Shown piece after piece: positions 16,498 to 51,347 of a DNA stretch of 64,000 bases. The stretch is from IMG/VR virus record IMGVR_UViG_3300047564_003078, positions 28,766 through 92,765 of that record; one strand, written 5' to 3'. Position numbers and translations under genes: made by a program. Under the pieces are notes generated by a model. It made no database searches. It saw only the letters and a program-made list of their open reading frames with translations, and was not told the origin of the DNA. Numbering within the stretch: the first letter of the stretch is position 1; the number at the start of each line of letters is the position of its first letter. This stretch comes from a virus.

Positions 16498-17060
16498 AAT
16501 ATAGAATATTACTAGTAGCATTGGAAGCAGAACTTCCTTATAAACTTGCACCTAAAAATTATAAAGTAATTTACACAGGTGTAGGAAAAGTAAACGCAGC
16601 ATTTGAAGCCACTAGAGCTATTGCAGAAGCACACAGTTTGGGGTTCCATCCTGAAGTTTATAACTACGGCACTGTTGGATCATGTAAACCCGATCTTACA
16701 GGCATGCACCGTATTACAAGATTTGTGCAGCGTGACATGAATGCAGAACCGCAAGCACCAAGAGGTGTAACTCCATTTGAAGCAGGGCTACCCTATTTGG
16801 ACTTTTCACTGGATATGACTCATGGTCTTACGCTAGGCACAGGCGATCAGTTTGTACACGAATTAGAACCGTGGCTGGTAAACAACAGCATTGATGTAGT
16901 TGACATGGAAGCATATGCTATTGCTCATGTGTGTAAACGCATGAATGCACAATTCACTTGCTACAAGTATATCACCGATTATGTAGGTACACCGCATCAA
17001 GCAGACACTTGGCAACAGAATGTAGCAAATGGTGTAGGGGAAATTTTAAAAGTATTATGA
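16494..17060 (+). CDS. MTA/SAH nucleosidase-like protein (purine phosphorylase fold)
   Basis: 188 aa. YTGVGKVNAAFEATRAI near residue 27, YNYGTVGSC near residue 57, LGTGDQF near residue 121, and VVDMEAYAIAHVCK near residue 138 are the ligand-binding and glutamate motifs of the MTAN/PNP family. Probably cleaves a purine (deoxy)nucleoside or 5'-methylthioadenosine. Shorter than MTAN (about 230 aa). Overlaps both neighbours by 4 nt. Confidence 0.75.
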   Translation: MKYRILLVALEAELPYKLAPKNYKVIYTGVGKVNAAFEATRAIAEAHSLGFHPEVYNYGTVGSCKPDLTGMHRITRFVQRDMNAEPQAPRGVTPFEAGLPYLDFSLDMTHGLTLGTGDQFVHELEPWLVNNSIDVVDMEAYAIAHVCKRMNAQFTCYKYITDYVGTPHQADTWQQNVANGVGEILKVL

Positions 17061-18577
17061 TTACTTGGGGAATAAGTGCCAACAGCCACGATGCTGCTCT
17101 AGCAGTGTACAAACACGAACATGTGGGTATTGATCTCAAACTGATGTTTGCAAGTCACAGCGAACGTTACAGTGGAATTAAAAACGACCCCCATCTAAAT
17201 ACTGCATTAATAGATGCAGCAAAACAACACGGAGAACCAGATGAAGTTGTTTGGTATGAACAACCTTTACTCAAAACTATTAGACAGTTTAGAGCAGGCC
17301 AAGGAATTCGGTTACGCGAAAACAATGTTAAACGTTATCTTAAATCTCATGGGATACACGCTCCTATTAGGTATGTTGATCATCATCTTGCCCATGCTGC
17401 TGCCGGTTTTTATACTAGTGGGTTTACAGAAGCTACTGTCGCATGTATCGACAGTATTGGAGAGTTCGAAACCCTTACCATCTGGGAAGGCAAAGACCGA
17501 GAACTCAAACGTATATATTCACAATCCTATCCCCATTCGCTGGGACTCTGGTATAGTGCGTTCACGCAAAGACTAGGGTTAAAACCGCAAGAGGACGAAT
17601 ATATTCTTATGGGTATGGCAGCCTATGGCGACCCTCTAAAGTACATGAACGAAATACTTGAAGAGTTTTTTTACCCTATAGAAAAAGAAAATCTCAAAGA
17701 CATATTCTTTCCTAAACCTAGAATCAAACTGCGTCACAATTTACACAGGGGATGTCTATGGTGGCGGCCAGAACTCAATAGCCCCCAAGATATAATGGAC
17801 ATAGCAGCGGCTGTTCAAGCAATATATGCGTACTTATTGAAATACATCAGCAACTGGGCTAGATGGAAATCATCCTCGGGTAACCTTGTTCTAATGGGAG
17901 GGTGTGCTTTAAATTGTGCTGCAAACAGCGGCATATACAAAGATTGGAATCAAGTTTGGATAATGCCCAATCCGGGCGATGCCGGGTCAGCTATCGGAGC
18001 ACCACTAGCCCATTACAAACAACACGTTGAATGGCCGGGTCCCTATCTAGGTCACAACATAGAAGGAGATTATCCTGTTGAAGATATTATCCGAGAACTG
18101 CTTACCACAGGTATCTGCGGTGTTGCTAGTGGCCCAGCTGAGTTTGGCCCTCGTGCTCTTGGTCATCGTAGTTTATTGGCTGACCCAAGAGGTGTGGACA
18201 TCAAGGATCGGGTCAACCGCATCAAGCAACGTCAGCAGTTTAGACCATTTGCCCCCGCAGTACTTGAAGAACATGCTGCAACCTATTTCGATGGCCCAGC
18301 AGGACCCTACATGCAATACACTGCTGTTTGCACAGACCCTGGACTACCTGCAATCACGCACGGGGACGGCACCAGTAGGGTACAGACAGTTTCTCGAGAT
18401 CAAAGCCCGGGCTTTAGACGTTTGCTAGAACGCTGGTACGAGGAAACTGGATGCCCTATACTGTTAAATACCAGTCTTAACATCAAGGGTCAACCAATTG
18501 TTAACACTGTAGAGGATGCTATAGAGTTTGAAAAACATTACGGTGTAAAAGTATGCTTGGCTGCTGCGAAAAAGTAA
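17057..18577 (+). CDS. Carbamoyltransferase (NodU/CmcH family)
   Basis: 506 aa from ATG 17057 (overlaps the upstream stop as ATGA). N-terminal ISANSHDAALAVYK, VDHHLAHAAAGFYTSG with metal-ligand histidines near residue 110, DSIGEFET, LMGGCALNCAAN near residue 282, and C-terminal GPAEFGPRALGHRSLLADPR and ILLNTSLNIKGQPI. Transfers carbamoyl from carbamoyl phosphate to a hydroxyl, often on sugars. May decorate phage DNA base or glycan; not decidable here. Confidence 0.9.
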   Translation: MITWGISANSHDAALAVYKHEHVGIDLKLMFASHSERYSGIKNDPHLNTALIDAAKQHGEPDEVVWYEQPLLKTIRQFRAGQGIRLRENNVKRYLKSHGIHAPIRYVDHHLAHAAAGFYTSGFTEATVACIDSIGEFETLTIWEGKDRELKRIYSQSYPHSLGLWYSAFTQRLGLKPQEDEYILMGMAAYGDPLKYMNEILEEFFYPIEKENLKDIFFPKPRIKLRHNLHRGCLWWRPELNSPQDIMDIAAAVQAIYAYLLKYISNWARWKSSSGNLVLMGGCALNCAANSGIYKDWNQVWIMPNPGDAGSAIGAPLAHYKQHVEWPGPYLGHNIEGDYPVEDIIRELLTTGICGVASGPAEFGPRALGHRSLLADPRGVDIKDRVNRIKQRQQFRPFAPAVLEEHAATYFDGPAGPYMQYTAVCTDPGLPAITHGDGTSRVQTVSRDQSPGFRRLLERWYEETGCPILLNTSLNIKGQPIVNTVEDAIEFEKHYGVKVCLAAAKK

Positions 18578-27501: not shown

Positions 27502-27578
<77 letters not shown>

Positions 27579-27591
27579 AGCAAAAGAAGTT

Positions 27592-27668
27592 TGGTAGGAC
27601 CTGCAGGACTCGAACCTGCAACCGACCCGTTATGAGCGGGGGGCTCTAACCAATTGAGCTAAGGTCCC
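27592..27668 (-). tRNA. tRNA with CAU anticodon (Ile2 or Met)
   Basis: 77 nt with encoded CCA; anticodon loop CTCATAA. The C27/U43 pair at the top of the anticodon stem is mismatched. CAU could be elongator Met or, after lysidine modification, Ile(AUA); the AUA-rich phage genes favour Ile2, as inference. Confidence 0.85.
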
Positions 27669-27674
27669 AAACTT

Positions 27675-27757
27675 TGGTACGGGCACCCGGACTCGAACCG
27701 GGATGCATTAAGCGAGAGATTTTAAGTCTCTTGTGGCTACCATTTCACCATGCCCGC
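27675..27757 (-). tRNA. tRNA-Leu(UAA)
   Basis: 83 nt with encoded CCA and a long class II variable arm; anticodon loop CTTAAAA (anticodon TAA). Reads TTA (and TTG), frequent in this genome. Confidence 0.9.
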
Positions 27758-43457: not shown

Positions 43458-43742
43458 TTTTTTCTCTCTATATATGTGTGAAATGCTGCACTTGCAGCAT
43501 TAACTATATATTTAACATAAAATGTTGACAAAACCGAGCGTGATTATTGCATATCGCCCTGCAAGAAAATGCATACCTGAGAATGGTTTTTTAAATGTTT
43601 GATAAAATCTTCATAAATCTGTTACACTTTTATGTTACATTATCTTTTAAATAATAGCGTAATGAGACACAGACACATACACAACCTCACACAGAGAAAC
43701 AGTCTCCTTGCGTTTTATTTTGTTAACAAAAGGATAACACAC
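43458..43742. promoter_or_regulatory. Divergent control region, DUF1127 cluster / pstS
   Basis: Contains a perfect 9-bp inverted repeat AATGCTGCA/TGCAGCATT (43481-43500), TATATA-type -10 sites on the minus strand, TTGACA at 43523, and two TGTTACA repeats 13 bp apart near 43619-43638. The repeats could be a PhoB-like box, but the spacing is not the canonical 11 bp. Confidence 0.4.
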
Positions 43743-44705
43743 ATGAAAACATTACTAACAGCAGCGGCAGTGGTAGCCCTAACAGCCACAGGTGCATTTG
43801 CCCGTGACAACGTACAGGTTACAGGCTCAAGCACAGTTCTTCCATATGCAACCATTGTTGCAGAAGCATTTGGCGAAAACTTTGAATTTCCATCACCGGT
43901 AGTTGAAGGTGGCGGTTCGGGTGCAGGTCGTAAGAAACTATGCGAAGGCGTAGGCGAAGGCACAGTTGATATTGCTAACAGCAGTTCAAAGATGAAAGAA
44001 GAAGAATGGGCCAAGTGCGAAGAAGCAGTTGGCAAGATTACAGAAGTTAGAATTGGCTACGATGGTATCGTATTTGCATCTAACATTGATCAACTCAACA
44101 TTGACGATCTAACAGTAGTTCAACTGTACACTGCACTACATGCTGACAGCACTGCAAAACTTTGGAGCGATGTCGATCCTGCTCTACCAGCGGTAGAAAT
44201 CCTTGCCTACATTCCAGGTACCAAGCATGGCACACGTGAAGTGTTTGATGTAAAGGTTATGGAAGATGGTTGTAAAACAGTACTAGGTGTTGAAAAGCTA
44301 GACGACGATCAGAAGAAGGCTTGCGTTAAGGTTCGTACTGATGGTGCAGCAATTGACATCGACGGCGACTATACTGAAACACTTGCACGTCTAGATGCAA
44401 ACAAGACAGCACTTGGCGTGTTTGGTCTTAGCTTCTATCAGAACAACACTGACAAGCTAGAAGTTGCTACAGTCAGCGGCGTATTTCCTAGCGTAGAAAC
44501 AATCTCAAGCGGTGATTATCCAATCAGCCGTCCGCTTTACTTCTATGTTAAGGATGCACATCTTGAAGTAATTCCAGGACTTAGAGAGTATGTACAGTTC
44601 TTCGTAAGTGATGAAATGGCAGGTCCAGACGGTGCTCTAGCACAATACGGTCTTGTTCCTGATCCAGAACTAGCAGCAACTCAAGAAGAGTGGGCTAACA
44701 AGTAA
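43743..44705 (+). CDS. pstS: Phosphate-binding protein PstS
   Basis: 320 aa from ATG 43743, with AAGGA upstream. Signal peptide MKTLLTAAAVVALTATGAFA; mature N-terminus VTGSSTVLPYATIVAEAF, GGGSGAGRKKLCEGVG and the ANSSSKM block, the phosphate-site motifs of PstS. Binds inorganic phosphate in the periplasm for the host Pst transporter. Phage pstS is known in marine T4-like phages. Ends in a strong bidirectional terminator. Confidence 0.92.
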   Translation: MKTLLTAAAVVALTATGAFARDNVQVTGSSTVLPYATIVAEAFGENFEFPSPVVEGGGSGAGRKKLCEGVGEGTVDIANSSSKMKEEEWAKCEEAVGKITEVRIGYDGIVFASNIDQLNIDDLTVVQLYTALHADSTAKLWSDVDPALPAVEILAYIPGTKHGTREVFDVKVMEDGCKTVLGVEKLDDDQKKACVKVRTDGAAIDIDGDYTETLARLDANKTALGVFGLSFYQNNTDKLEVATVSGVFPSVETISSGDYPISRPLYFYVKDAHLEVIPGLREYVQFFVSDEMAGPDGALAQYGLVPDPELAATQEEWANK

Positions 44706-47834: not shown

Positions 47835-48110
47835 ATGTTGTTACGTGAAGTTTTTGATCAAAAAATAGATGAAAAATTAATATGGGGTCGTGCCGGTAAT
47901 AAGGTTGTACGCAAGTACCGTTGCAGCGGCGGCACCCGTCATGGTAGAATTGTGAGCAAAGCTCAACAATGTTTTGCCCCTTTGGATTTTAAGCAGAGTG
48001 CAAGATTTAAAAAAGTAAAAGCTAGAATTGGCGATCGCATGAGTCGTAAGGCTAGACGAACCAAGCGTGTAAATCCTGCAAGCAAACGAGTACAGGCGTT
48101 GAACAAGTAA
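47835..48110 (+). CDS. Basic tandem paralogue A, 91 aa
   Basis: IWGRAGNKVVRKYRCSGG, then RHGRIVSKAQQC and a Lys/Arg-rich C-terminus (MSRKARRTKRVNP). Very basic, so probably nucleic-acid binding. Shares the W-GR...VxRxYRC...GR-V pattern with the next gene. Confidence 0.65.
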   Translation: MLLREVFDQKIDEKLIWGRAGNKVVRKYRCSGGTRHGRIVSKAQQCFAPLDFKQSARFKKVKARIGDRMSRKARRTKRVNPASKRVQALNK

Positions 48111-48409
48111 TGCAAGTAGTAGAGATCATAGAAGGCTATACACAAGTTTGGGGACGCAGTAAAAAAGGAGTCGTTAGACGTTATCGTTGTACTGATGGTC
48201 CTAAAAAAGGGCGTGTGGTTGCAAAACCCAGTACTTGCGGAACAAGAGTTAATCAAAAGAAAAGCTTACAATTAAAAAATACTCGCAGAACCAAAGGTAA
48301 GTCACAATCTATAAAACGTGCCGCTACAATGAAACGTCCAACAACCAGCAGAATTCAAAAACTAAACAAAGGCATAACACCACGTCGCGGAAAGAGTAGA
48401 AAAAAATGA
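48110..48409 (+). CDS. Basic tandem paralogue B, 99 aa
   Basis: QVWGRSKKGVVRRYRCTDG, then KKGRVVAKPSTCGT and a long Lys/Arg-rich tail. Starts at the preceding stop. Looks like a duplication of paralogue A. May condense DNA or form part of the virion. Confidence 0.65.
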   Translation: MQVVEIIEGYTQVWGRSKKGVVRRYRCTDGPKKGRVVAKPSTCGTRVNQKKSLQLKNTRRTKGKSQSIKRAATMKRPTTSRIQKLNKGITPRRGKSRKK

Positions 48410-48819
48410 GAGCCACAGAATTTATCACTCTAGAACAAAAATTAGACGAGGTAATACCTCTAATTACCAATAGCAACAGTCTAGCCGTTGCAAAACAAAA
48501 TGCCAGTGTTACCAATAAACAAACAAAGACAACGGGTACTGTAGGAACTGTAAAAACCAAAGGTACTGTGCAACAACAGACACAACAAACACCTGAGCCT
48601 GCTGACATTACCCAAGCAGAAATACAAATAGACAAAGCAATACAACCCGGAAAACAAATCCCGTTGCCTACAGGAGCCGGAAGATCACAAAATTTTAGAA
48701 TAACAGCAGTCAAGGGGGACGAAGTAGAAATTGAAAACCCTGACGGACATCGTAATCCAAATCAACCTAACAAACTAACTTATAAAAGAAAAGACATAAA
48801 GAAGTCAATAGCAATATGA
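48406..48819 (+). CDS. Unknown 137-aa protein
   Basis: MRATEFITLEQKLDEVIPLI, a low-complexity Thr/Lys/Gln middle (TGTVGTVKTKGTVQQQTQQT), and a structured C-terminal part with FRITAVKGDEVEIENPDG. Its opening resembles MRATDL at 39489. Likely a virion-associated protein; function unknown. Confidence 0.6.
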   Translation: MRATEFITLEQKLDEVIPLITNSNSLAVAKQNASVTNKQTKTTGTVGTVKTKGTVQQQTQQTPEPADITQAEIQIDKAIQPGKQIPLPTGAGRSQNFRITAVKGDEVEIENPDGHRNPNQPNKLTYKRKDIKKSIAI

Positions 48820-49022
48820 AACTAAATGATCTTATTAATGAATTTAGTGTTTTTACAAGCAATGAAGAAAGACATTTGCTTGACAAGATCAAGCAACCAT
48901 GCTATATTGAAACTCTTAGCGAACGAGAAGCTACTGTCGCAGAAAACTTAGTGCGAAAAAGTCTACTTACAAAAGTTAGATATCAAGGGTCAACGGTGTT
49001 TATGCAAAATGAAAAGTCTTAA
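48816..49022 (+). CDS. Unknown 68-aa protein
   Basis: Starts MKLNDLINEFSVFTSNEERH. The plan resembles a small winged-helix domain (helices then a strand pair). Overlaps both neighbours. Function unknown. Confidence 0.6.
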   Translation: MKLNDLINEFSVFTSNEERHLLDKIKQPCYIETLSEREATVAENLVRKSLLTKVRYQGSTVFMQNEKS

Positions 49023-49471: not shown

Positions 49472-50341
49472 ATGCAAGTAAGAGAATTCGCAAAGCCAGT
49501 AACTGCAAATAAGCTAAACGAAAGCATGGCAGCTCGTTTTGGCACTAAACTAAGTTTGACCAAGTTCACACTTGAACAACTTCAAGATGCACGTAACAGA
49601 ATACGTACACAGCTATCACAAGTTGAGACCAATGAAAGCTTTGACAGTGTTCAAAATGAAACCTATCAAAAATCTAAAATGATGCTTGATGTTCTAAACG
49701 CTGCAATCAGTGAGCGTGGTGGAATTGACGAGGGTGCAAAGCCAGACTTCCTTGACATGGACAAAGACGGCAACAAAAAAGAGCCAATGAAGAAAGCCGT
49801 CAAGGATAAGAAAAAGAAAATCAAAGAAGGTGCTGAAGATCACGCAGAGCTTGTTATGGCAGCCAAGGAAATGGTTGACCGTGTTACAGGCTGGATGGAA
49901 GATACAGCAGAAATGCAGACTGAAAGCATGTTAGAACTAGCAGATGCTATCAGAGACGAAATGGGTCAAGCTGCATCAGATGCCTTTATTGGCATGGTAA
50001 AACCAGGTCTTGATAGTCTTTACACCGCACTGGACTCAACACGTACATCTCTAAATGGCGGAGTTAGCCAACTCACTGGTGAAGGTGAACCAGCTGACAT
50101 GATGGGAACTGATGACATGGGTGACATGGGTGACATGGAACCTCCAGTAGATGCTGACGCTGATATGATGGATGCACCTGTTGACGACGAAGGCGACTTT
50201 GGTGCAGCAGAGCCAGCAACAGGCGGAGACGAACCTGCAGATCGTGCAAAACGTGAAAGTATTCAACGAATCGTTAAAAAAGTTACCAAAGAAAATGTTA
50301 ATGGCCGTAAGCTAGTAACAAGCCTTTCAAAAAAAAAGTAA
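49472..50341 (+). CDS. Scaffold/prohead-core-like acidic protein with frameshift signal
   Basis: 289 aa. Helical N-terminus (LEQLQDARNRIRTQLSQVE), Lys-rich patch (KAVKDKKKKIKEG), DFLDMDKDGNKKEPM, long helices to about residue 200, then an Asp/Met-rich disordered segment and a basic tail ending SKKK. This composition fits a scaffold or head-core protein. It ends on A AAA AAG TAA, and a -1 shift would add about 105 residues. Confidence 0.6.
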   Translation: MQVREFAKPVTANKLNESMAARFGTKLSLTKFTLEQLQDARNRIRTQLSQVETNESFDSVQNETYQKSKMMLDVLNAAISERGGIDEGAKPDFLDMDKDGNKKEPMKKAVKDKKKKIKEGAEDHAELVMAAKEMVDRVTGWMEDTAEMQTESMLELADAIRDEMGQAASDAFIGMVKPGLDSLYTALDSTRTSLNGGVSQLTGEGEPADMMGTDDMGDMGDMEPPVDADADMMDAPVDDEGDFGAAEPATGGDEPADRAKRESIQRIVKKVTKENVNGRKLVTSLSKKK

Positions 50342-50652
50342 CAGAAGCTTCTGTTGAAGCAGATAAACTCTACAGAGTCTTAAATCTCTTAAAAGATAAA
50401 GGCGTTGTAGAGTTTTCTTTTGACCAATTGAATCAATATATGATGAATGTTGGTGCTCCGCAGTTTGATTATGAAAGCCTTAAGAACCTGCATGACAACG
50501 ATTCACGTATAAAAACTATTATCAAAGATTTTACCGATCAAGGCATTACTCTTAAAACCAGTGAAGTAGACGATATACAGACAAAAGCTACAAAGAGAAA
50601 AAACACTGTAAAGAATATGGCAAAGAAAGCTGTTGACTTAAAAGATTTGTAA
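50311..50652 (+). CDS. C-terminal extension in -1 frame (no good start codon)
   Basis: This frame is open from 50311 to 50652 with no ATG or GTG before the TTG at 50428, yet the sequence before the TTG (ASVEADKLYRVLNLLKDKG) looks like a helical domain that continues as VEFSFDQLNQYMMNVGAPQF. It would be read as a fusion to the scaffold-like protein after a -1 shift at 50332-50338, or reflect a homopolymer error. Confidence 0.55.
   Translation, partial: ASNKPFKKKVTEASVEADKLYRVLNLLKDKGVVEFSFDQLNQYMMNVGAPQFDYESLKNLHDNDSRIKTIIKDFTDQGITLKTSEVDDIQTKATKRKNTVKNMAKKAVDLKDL
50329..50356 (+). promoter_or_regulatory. Candidate -1 ribosomal frameshift site
   Basis: Slippery A AAA AAG (50332-50338) inside a run of nine A, then the stop TAA (50339-50341) and a palindrome ACAGAAG/CTTCTGT that could form a short stem. 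A AAA AAG is the efficient shift heptamer of E. coli dnaX. Confidence 0.55.
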
Positions 50653-50666: not shown

Positions 50667-51347
50667 ATGTCTCTAATTAAAAACAAATTCACATATGCAA
50701 AATTAAAACGTGTAGAAGTAAACGGTAAACGCAGATACGAAACTCCTGGCGGCCCTCCTGTAGCAAGCGTTACAACTATTTTAGGTGCAACCAAAGATCA
50801 AACACACCTTATTGAATGGCGTAGAAGAGTTGGCGAACAAAAGGCTCAAGAGATAACCACTGAGGCTGCGGGAGTTGGTACCCGGATGCACAAGTATCTA
50901 GAAGATTACATTGACACAGGTACGTGGCCCGTAGCAGGCGGCAATCCTTATGCTCAGCAAGCACATGCTATGGCTACAGCAATCAAAGTACATGCACTCG
51001 ATGATGTGGATGAAATTTGGGGCAGCGAAGTTCCATTGTACATCCCGCAACTCTATGCAGGAACAACGGATCTTGTAGGATTATACAAAGGCAATCCGTG
51101 CATTTTAGATTTTAAACAAACCAACAAACCAAAAAAAGCAGAGTGGGTAGAGGATTACTTCCTTCAGCTAACAGCATACGCTCTTGCTCACAATGAAATA
51201 CACGGTACCAACATACGTGAAGGACATATATTCATGTGTTCACGCAATCTAGAGTACCAACAATTTGATTTATGGCCAGATGACTTTGACGAATGGAGCC
51301 ATAAATGGTGGGATAGAGTGTATCAATATTACGAGAAATACGCATAA
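50667..51347 (+). CDS. PD-(D/E)XK family exonuclease (RecB/Cas4-like)
   Basis: 226 aa. AAGVGTRMHKYLEDY (G-x3-H motif) near residue 68, YAGTTDLVGLYKGNPCILDF then KQTN (D ... DFKxT core) near residue 130, and YFLQLTAYALAHNE (Q-x-x-x-Y motif) near residue 168. Such nucleases process DNA ends in recombination. Early or middle promoter abuts its start, unlike its late neighbours. Confidence 0.8.
   Translation: MSLIKNKFTYAKLKRVEVNGKRRYETPGGPPVASVTTILGATKDQTHLIEWRRRVGEQKAQEITTEAAGVGTRMHKYLEDYIDTGTWPVAGGNPYAQQAHAMATAIKVHALDDVDEIWGSEVPLYIPQLYAGTTDLVGLYKGNPCILDFKQTNKPKKAEWVEDYFLQLTAYALAHNEIHGTNIREGHIFMCSRNLEYQQFDLWPDDFDEWSHKWWDRVYQYYEKYA

Follow-up and report, generated by a model that had tools for sequence, protein, structure and literature searches.

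How is a protein domain of ~105 residues produced when it lies in the -1 frame behind the stop codon of a virion-type phage gene, with no start codon of its own near the junction? The question is raised by a locus in the 64,000-nucleotide stretch of viral DNA analysed here (hereafter the window), which was taken from a virus record of 92,765 bases. The upstream gene (N-part) is an open reading frame at positions 49472-50341 on the plus strand, codes for 289 aa and has more than 590 homologues among viral contigs. Its 3′ end reads TCA AAA AAA AAG TAA, that is, a run of nine A at 50329-50337 (TC-AAAAAAAAA-G, with the G at 50338), which is the candidate slip site, and the 0-frame stop TAA at 50339-50341, which ends the short product. 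This run is the only one of nine or more A in the whole 64 kb, and its last six A and the following G form the in-phase heptamer A_AAA_AAG (50332-50338); in-phase heptamers were also listed across the homologues. The -1 frame runs from 50311 without a stop until 50650-50652, and from the junction onward (50338-50652, plus strand) it codes for an extension of 104 aa plus stop, VTEASVEADKLYRVLNLLKDKG...VKNMAKKAVDLKDL, identified through alignment, dN/dS, AlphaFold2 and Foldseek. The first-pass annotation of this DNA had reported both the nine-A gene end and the open -1 frame, and we find both. Its remark that the -1 frame has no ATG or GTG holds near the junction but not further on, since ATG codons occur at 50440 and 50443, preceded only by a TTG at 50428 as the earliest potential start.

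Scanned against viral contigs, the N-part gave more than 590 relatives, of which the best 80 were kept, and additional scans of viral contigs used a divergent profile and a protein of the separate-gene type, while genome contigs were also scanned. After all scans were pooled and duplicates removed, 119 distinct junctions remained, located on contigs of uncultivated marine T4-like phages. Note that the kept loci are the best matches per query, and therefore the proportions of architectures that follow are not those in nature: 97/119 junctions displayed 8-10 consecutive A where the N-part gene ends, with the extension in the -1 frame (A8 in 3, A9 in 86 and A10 in 8, including one A10 locus, L027, that was entered by hand), and the remaining 22 had no run of eight or more A at the site. 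The same conserved domain occupies the -1 frame at all 97 run-bearing junctions, and the 0-frame stop lies 0-22 nt past the run, so that the stop drifts and the run is retained. At the run-less junctions, the extension has its own ATG shortly past the N-part stop (22/22), with an SD-like sequence in 20 cases. An ATG plus SD near the junction was found at none of the 97 run-bearing junctions; between -12 and +75, 49 of them have no ATG, GTG or TTG at all, 32 have GTG or TTG only, and 16 have an ATG without SD. A single frame fused across the junction was not found in any of the 119. The first-pass annotation had named a normal start codon of the second part in homologues as a case that would speak against a shift. 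Such homologues do exist, but they are confined to these 22 run-less junctions, and they strengthen the recoding reading because they are found only where the A-run has been lost.

The extension is under purifying selection. Its median dN/dS was 0.159 in the -1 frame, whereas the 0 frame gave 1.21 and the third frame 2.17 (109 pairs with 70-97% identity, pairwise codon alignments; an earlier run had given 0.57, which we attribute to a poor multiple alignment), and in an alignment of 40 sequences (A1) residues are conserved along its whole length. In addition, A-runs of this size are avoided elsewhere: in a background set of 771 non-redundant other genes (395 kb), runs of eight or more A are depleted about eight-fold, with 9 runs of eight observed for 55 expected by synonymous shuffling and, once a lone A9 (family member L015) is set aside, none of nine or more for ~23 expected.

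Homopolymers are error-prone and one extra A would merge the two frames; a one-base homopolymer error or mutation was the alternative given in the first-pass annotation. Faulty sequencing or assembly of the run, or a one-base mutation that hit it recently, is however excluded for all practical purposes by the 96 further distinct homologues that have the run and the frame, at roughly 50-70% protein identity and with shifting stops, by the lack of any fused frame among the 119 junctions and by purifying selection on the -1 frame, and we give it a negligible probability. The extension could also be an independent gene, translated by re-initiation or from a weak start, as holds in the 22 start-codon relatives and in the three jumbo phages described below. 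For the run-bearing phages we rejected a separate start on the survey of their 97 junctions, given that half of them (49) lack any start codon between -12 and +75, that the 16 ATGs come without SD, and that the earliest start of the window (the TTG) falls inside the conserved domain; moreover, an independent gene would leave the A-run unexplained, and we judge this reading very improbable. Programmed recoding at the nine-A run is, on comparative sequence grounds, the reading that we hold with high confidence, and the shift into the -1 frame adding a C-terminal domain, as initially proposed, is now backed by 96 further distinct homologues and by dN/dS. At this level, the comparisons establish the frame, the site, the selection acting on the extension and, in some relatives, an ATG (mostly with SD) that takes the place of the slip site. 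By default, translation would end at the TAA and give the 289-aa protein, and in a fraction of events a -1 change inside the A-run would give a fusion of ~393 aa with a winged-helix-like C-terminal domain, either through ribosome re-pairing on A_AAA_AAG or A_AAA_AAA or through an RNA polymerase adding one A. The ratio of short to long product, the slipping machine and the purpose of the fusion are what we infer beyond this.

The two architectures appear to interchange over the evolution of the family. The N-protein tree displayed 6 architecture changes, 5 of them forced (none of 500 shuffles was as low), and the tree of the downstream exonuclease displayed 11, with 4 forced, which suggests from sequence comparison that the run-bearing and separate-gene states have interchanged at least 4-6 times; recombination between phages may contribute to the scatter of states on these trees. 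As an example, L213 retains the peptide SKKK but codes it as TCA AAG AAG AAG, and its extension has a start. L178 looks intermediate, with TCA AAA AAG AAA TAG, an in-phase A_AAA_AAG and an ATG, and suggests that the recoded and separate-start modes may coexist. In L029 and L068 the 0 and -1 frames have only 10 nt in common, within the end of the run, and in L065 and L131 they share 13 nt, which pins the shift to the end of the run.

Which machine slips is more evenly argued. Ribosomal -1 frameshifting on A_AAA_AAG or A_AAA_AAA, as in dnaX or IS3-family elements, has in our view only just less than an even chance. An in-phase heptamer is found at all run-bearing junctions (the first 80 were listed, and every A9 includes one), and A_AAA_AAG ranks among the most efficient motifs in E. 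coli (PMC4066793). The RNA 3′ of the run folds at -5.9 kcal/mol versus -3.7 for synonymous resamplings (z -0.97 ± 0.16, versus -0.46 in a control region), and 31% of 74 representatives lie in the lowest 5% for downstream folding, versus 16% for the control region. Moreover, A6-A7 runs elsewhere are depleted in the X_XXY_YYZ phase (0.79 and 0.54) and little or not at all in the other phases, and avoidance is stronger for A-runs than for T-runs, though bacterial RNA polymerase prefers T (PMC6260861). However, A6G or A7G would be enough for a ribosome, whereas every frameshift-type homologue has at least eight A; moreover, in 88/96 cases the three Lys codons are preceded by a codon that ends in A (usually TCA, otherwise GGA, CCA or TTA), which the heptamer does not need. 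The hairpin and the upstream SD are both non-universal as well, the SD signal being marginal among the representatives and stable downstream folds occurring in about a third of them. The 14-bp palindrome to which the first-pass annotation pointed is indeed present at 50341-50354 on the plus strand (ACAGAAGCTTCTGT), but a role as stimulator is unsupported: it adjoins the slip site almost without spacer, it is not conserved among homologues, and the 60 nt 3′ of the run have a fold z of -0.72, with 46/200 shuffles equally good. We likewise found a hairpin unsupported as a universal stimulator.

Programmed transcriptional slippage, in which the polymerase would insert one A and thus produce A10 mRNAs that code for the fusion, is a serious candidate to which we assign a probability somewhat short of even. 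Run length (at least eight, mode nine) is conserved here, and not the codon phase, the preceding codon or the next base (G, T or C); at 5 junctions, TCG AAA AAA AAA GAC retains nine A in another phase. E. coli RNA polymerase is inactive on fewer than eight A, and A-runs give insertion with no deletion (PMC6260861); the conserved length together with this threshold therefore fits transcriptional slippage. Runs of eight or more A are also depleted elsewhere in all three phases. In contrast, the phase-specific avoidance of A6 and A7 and the downstream folding signal favour ribosomes, and bacterial RNA polymerase may slip inefficiently on A9. Stops in the +1 frame soon after the run are slightly enriched (46% vs 36%), too weakly for use. 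Ribosome and polymerase slippage may act together. The broader proposal that hundreds of uncultivated marine T4-like phages equip a virion protein with a winged-helix domain of DNA-binding type by polymerase slippage and not by ribosomal frameshifting, with lineages repeatedly switching to a separate gene, is one that we put forward as speculative and rather doubtful. Because 8-10 A are conserved, a direct test can tell slippage by the ribosome from slippage by the polymerase.

The N-part matches phrog_14154, a 'virion structural protein' of the head and packaging category, over residues 115-277 only (E 4.6e-10 in the window), and this match is found in 21/21 aligned members. The phrog_14154 profile has 771 positions, which is the length of AUZ94856 of phage Atu_ph07. 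AlphaFold2 predicted a helical N-part with a core at residues 109-202 plus a disordered acidic region. A scaffold-like role, as named in the first-pass annotation, is a plausible candidate, the family annotation being 'virion structural protein'; no Pfam scaffold match of the T4 gp22 type was obtained for the N-part, and in large relatives the gp21 and gp23 genes sit elsewhere, away from it. A tail assembly chaperone was rejected, since PF12322 lies in other genes of the three large relatives concerned (G001-G003) and the N-part has no Pfam match to such a chaperone. Within the N-part we also noted an inserted module of ~25 aa, KPDFLDMDKDGNKKEPMKKA (window 49735-49815), which is variably present among homologues; a second copy with 89% DNA identity is located in the same genome (G000:C1:18595-18675), and the module is also found in several cyanophage proteins.

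Fold search and profile search identified homologues in isolates. N-part homologues occur in three jumbo phages (E 2e-14 to 1e-5), each followed by a protein of ~120 aa: NVP2275O_025/_026 in Vibrio phage 2.275.O, genes 8/7 in Salicola phage SCTP-2, and AUZ94856/AUZ94855 in Atu_ph07. In contrast to the window, these are pairs of ordinary genes without an A-run. A PD-(D/E)XK-type exonuclease (50667-51347, plus strand; phrog_298, E 4e-57) is the syntenic neighbour of the recoding unit and lies outside it, and the order N-part, extension, exonuclease is found as separate genes in 2.275.O and SCTP-2; the third gene of Atu_ph07 is not clearly the same exonuclease. Synteny and the fold search, with a weak profile match, hint that the ~120-aa proteins are homologous to the extension. 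Mass spectrometry identified a cluster of Atu_ph07 virion proteins, CDS 31-76 (PMC6102473), and AUZ94856, which is CDS 44 when we number from AUZ94813 as CDS 1, falls by its position within this range. By tblastn, GenBank phages gave no match for the N-part or the extension of the window, and with L036 the sole match was the 25-aa KPDFLDxDKDG module, which occurs there in cyanophages. An Rfam search returned nothing relevant, and we found no description of this gene or its recoding in the literature. Two recoded pairs came from binned contigs, L226 on the 335-kb PBPT01000016.1 (Neomarinimicrobiota) and L227 on the 30-kb PALK01000009.1 (Rickettsiales); both are probably phage contigs inside MAGs.

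The AlphaFold2 model of the extension has the order H-b-H-H-b-b, with a pLDDT of ~88 for residues 3-65, and its best Foldseek matches in the PDB are mainly winged helices (MCM, Fur, STIV F93 and ZBP1), although weak (E ≥ 0.2). Going by the modelled fold, we take the extension for a probable winged-helix domain, probably DNA-binding-like. It has the C-terminal motif V..MAKkA, and the extension of the window, used as query against viral contigs, gave no relatives. All 22 separate extension proteins open with M-x-x-x-[ED]-[FILV]. The same start is found in the N-part and in 4/5 upstream genes, i.e., in 5/6 consecutive window genes (P 8e-5, calculated post hoc); these small genes, at 47835-49022, begin MLLREV, MQVVEI, MRATEF and MKLNDL. 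The ~120-aa proteins of the three jumbo phages start with MR..DL.E. In T4, capsid-targeted internal proteins carry a short conserved N-terminal targeting sequence (CTS), which is cleaved by gp21. The gp21 family is found in the records of 3/10 relatives, and the gp23 family also occurs among large relatives; the N-part shows no enrichment of [VIL]xE protease-site motifs. Judged from sequence, the shared start is possibly a head-targeting leader. Fusion to the virion protein would likely serve to deliver the winged-helix domain to the head or virion in limited amount, and the relatives in which the domain stands alone would give it a short N-terminus resembling that of the neighbouring genes. 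Because of the shared starts and the gp21 and gp23 families in large relatives, we tentatively propose, at rather less than even probability, that the domain enters the head or virion through fusion to the N-part or through its own leader; the location in the head is suggested by the family annotation and the gene neighbourhood.

The lambda gpG/gpGT system is likewise a phage structural-assembly gene with a short product and a minor -1 fusion, is conserved over divergent phages, and has some relatives with separate genes. However, its protein is unrelated to the N-part, and the T4-type chaperone is another gene in the three large relatives mentioned above; T4-like tail assembly chaperones have been reported as non-frameshifting (Vladimirov 2022, as cited in PMC10885494). 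In T3/T7 gene 10, Lactobacillus phage A2 and Listeria phage PSA, frameshifting likewise adds a C-terminal domain to a virion protein (PMC5009743), but in these capsid-extension systems the major coat protein gains, e.g., an Ig-like domain, whereas here a different virion-type protein would gain a winged-helix-like one. The in-phase heptamer A_AAA_AAG is identical to that of dnaX and IS3-family elements; unlike them, the family here retains 8-10 A, without a constant SD or stem-loop. Bacterial transcriptional slippage on A or T runs, e.g., in Shigella spa13 and IS elements, likewise links a conserved long homopolymer to a C-terminal extension; compared to these, the present case, in which such slippage is a candidate mechanism, would concern a virion-type gene of tailed phages. 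The few phage structural-type genes in which recoding is conserved would gain a new protein family, from an abundant marine phage group that apparently has no close isolate. The 97 slip-run versus 22 start-codon junctions provide a natural experiment on what replaces a lost recoding site. Note that gene callers miss the ~105-residue domain, or assign it a false start, throughout the group.

Several other features of the window were noted. Copies of CCTACATGTTTAATATAGT...TTGTCAAGAG are dispersed between 22800 and 30200; they number at least 9, against 0.12 expected, and as many as ~17, and on the minus strand they read CTCTTGACAA...TATATT and form an array of sigma-70-like promoters; each copy has a variable inverted repeat, with T runs near some of them, and three minus-strand tRNA genes (Arg-TCT, Met-CAT and Leu-TAA) lie within the array at 27502-27757. 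Finally, a PstS-like phosphate-binding protein (PBP_like_2) is encoded at 43632-44705 and a Nol-like carbamoyltransferase at 16958-18577, both of which are likely host-derived auxiliary genes.
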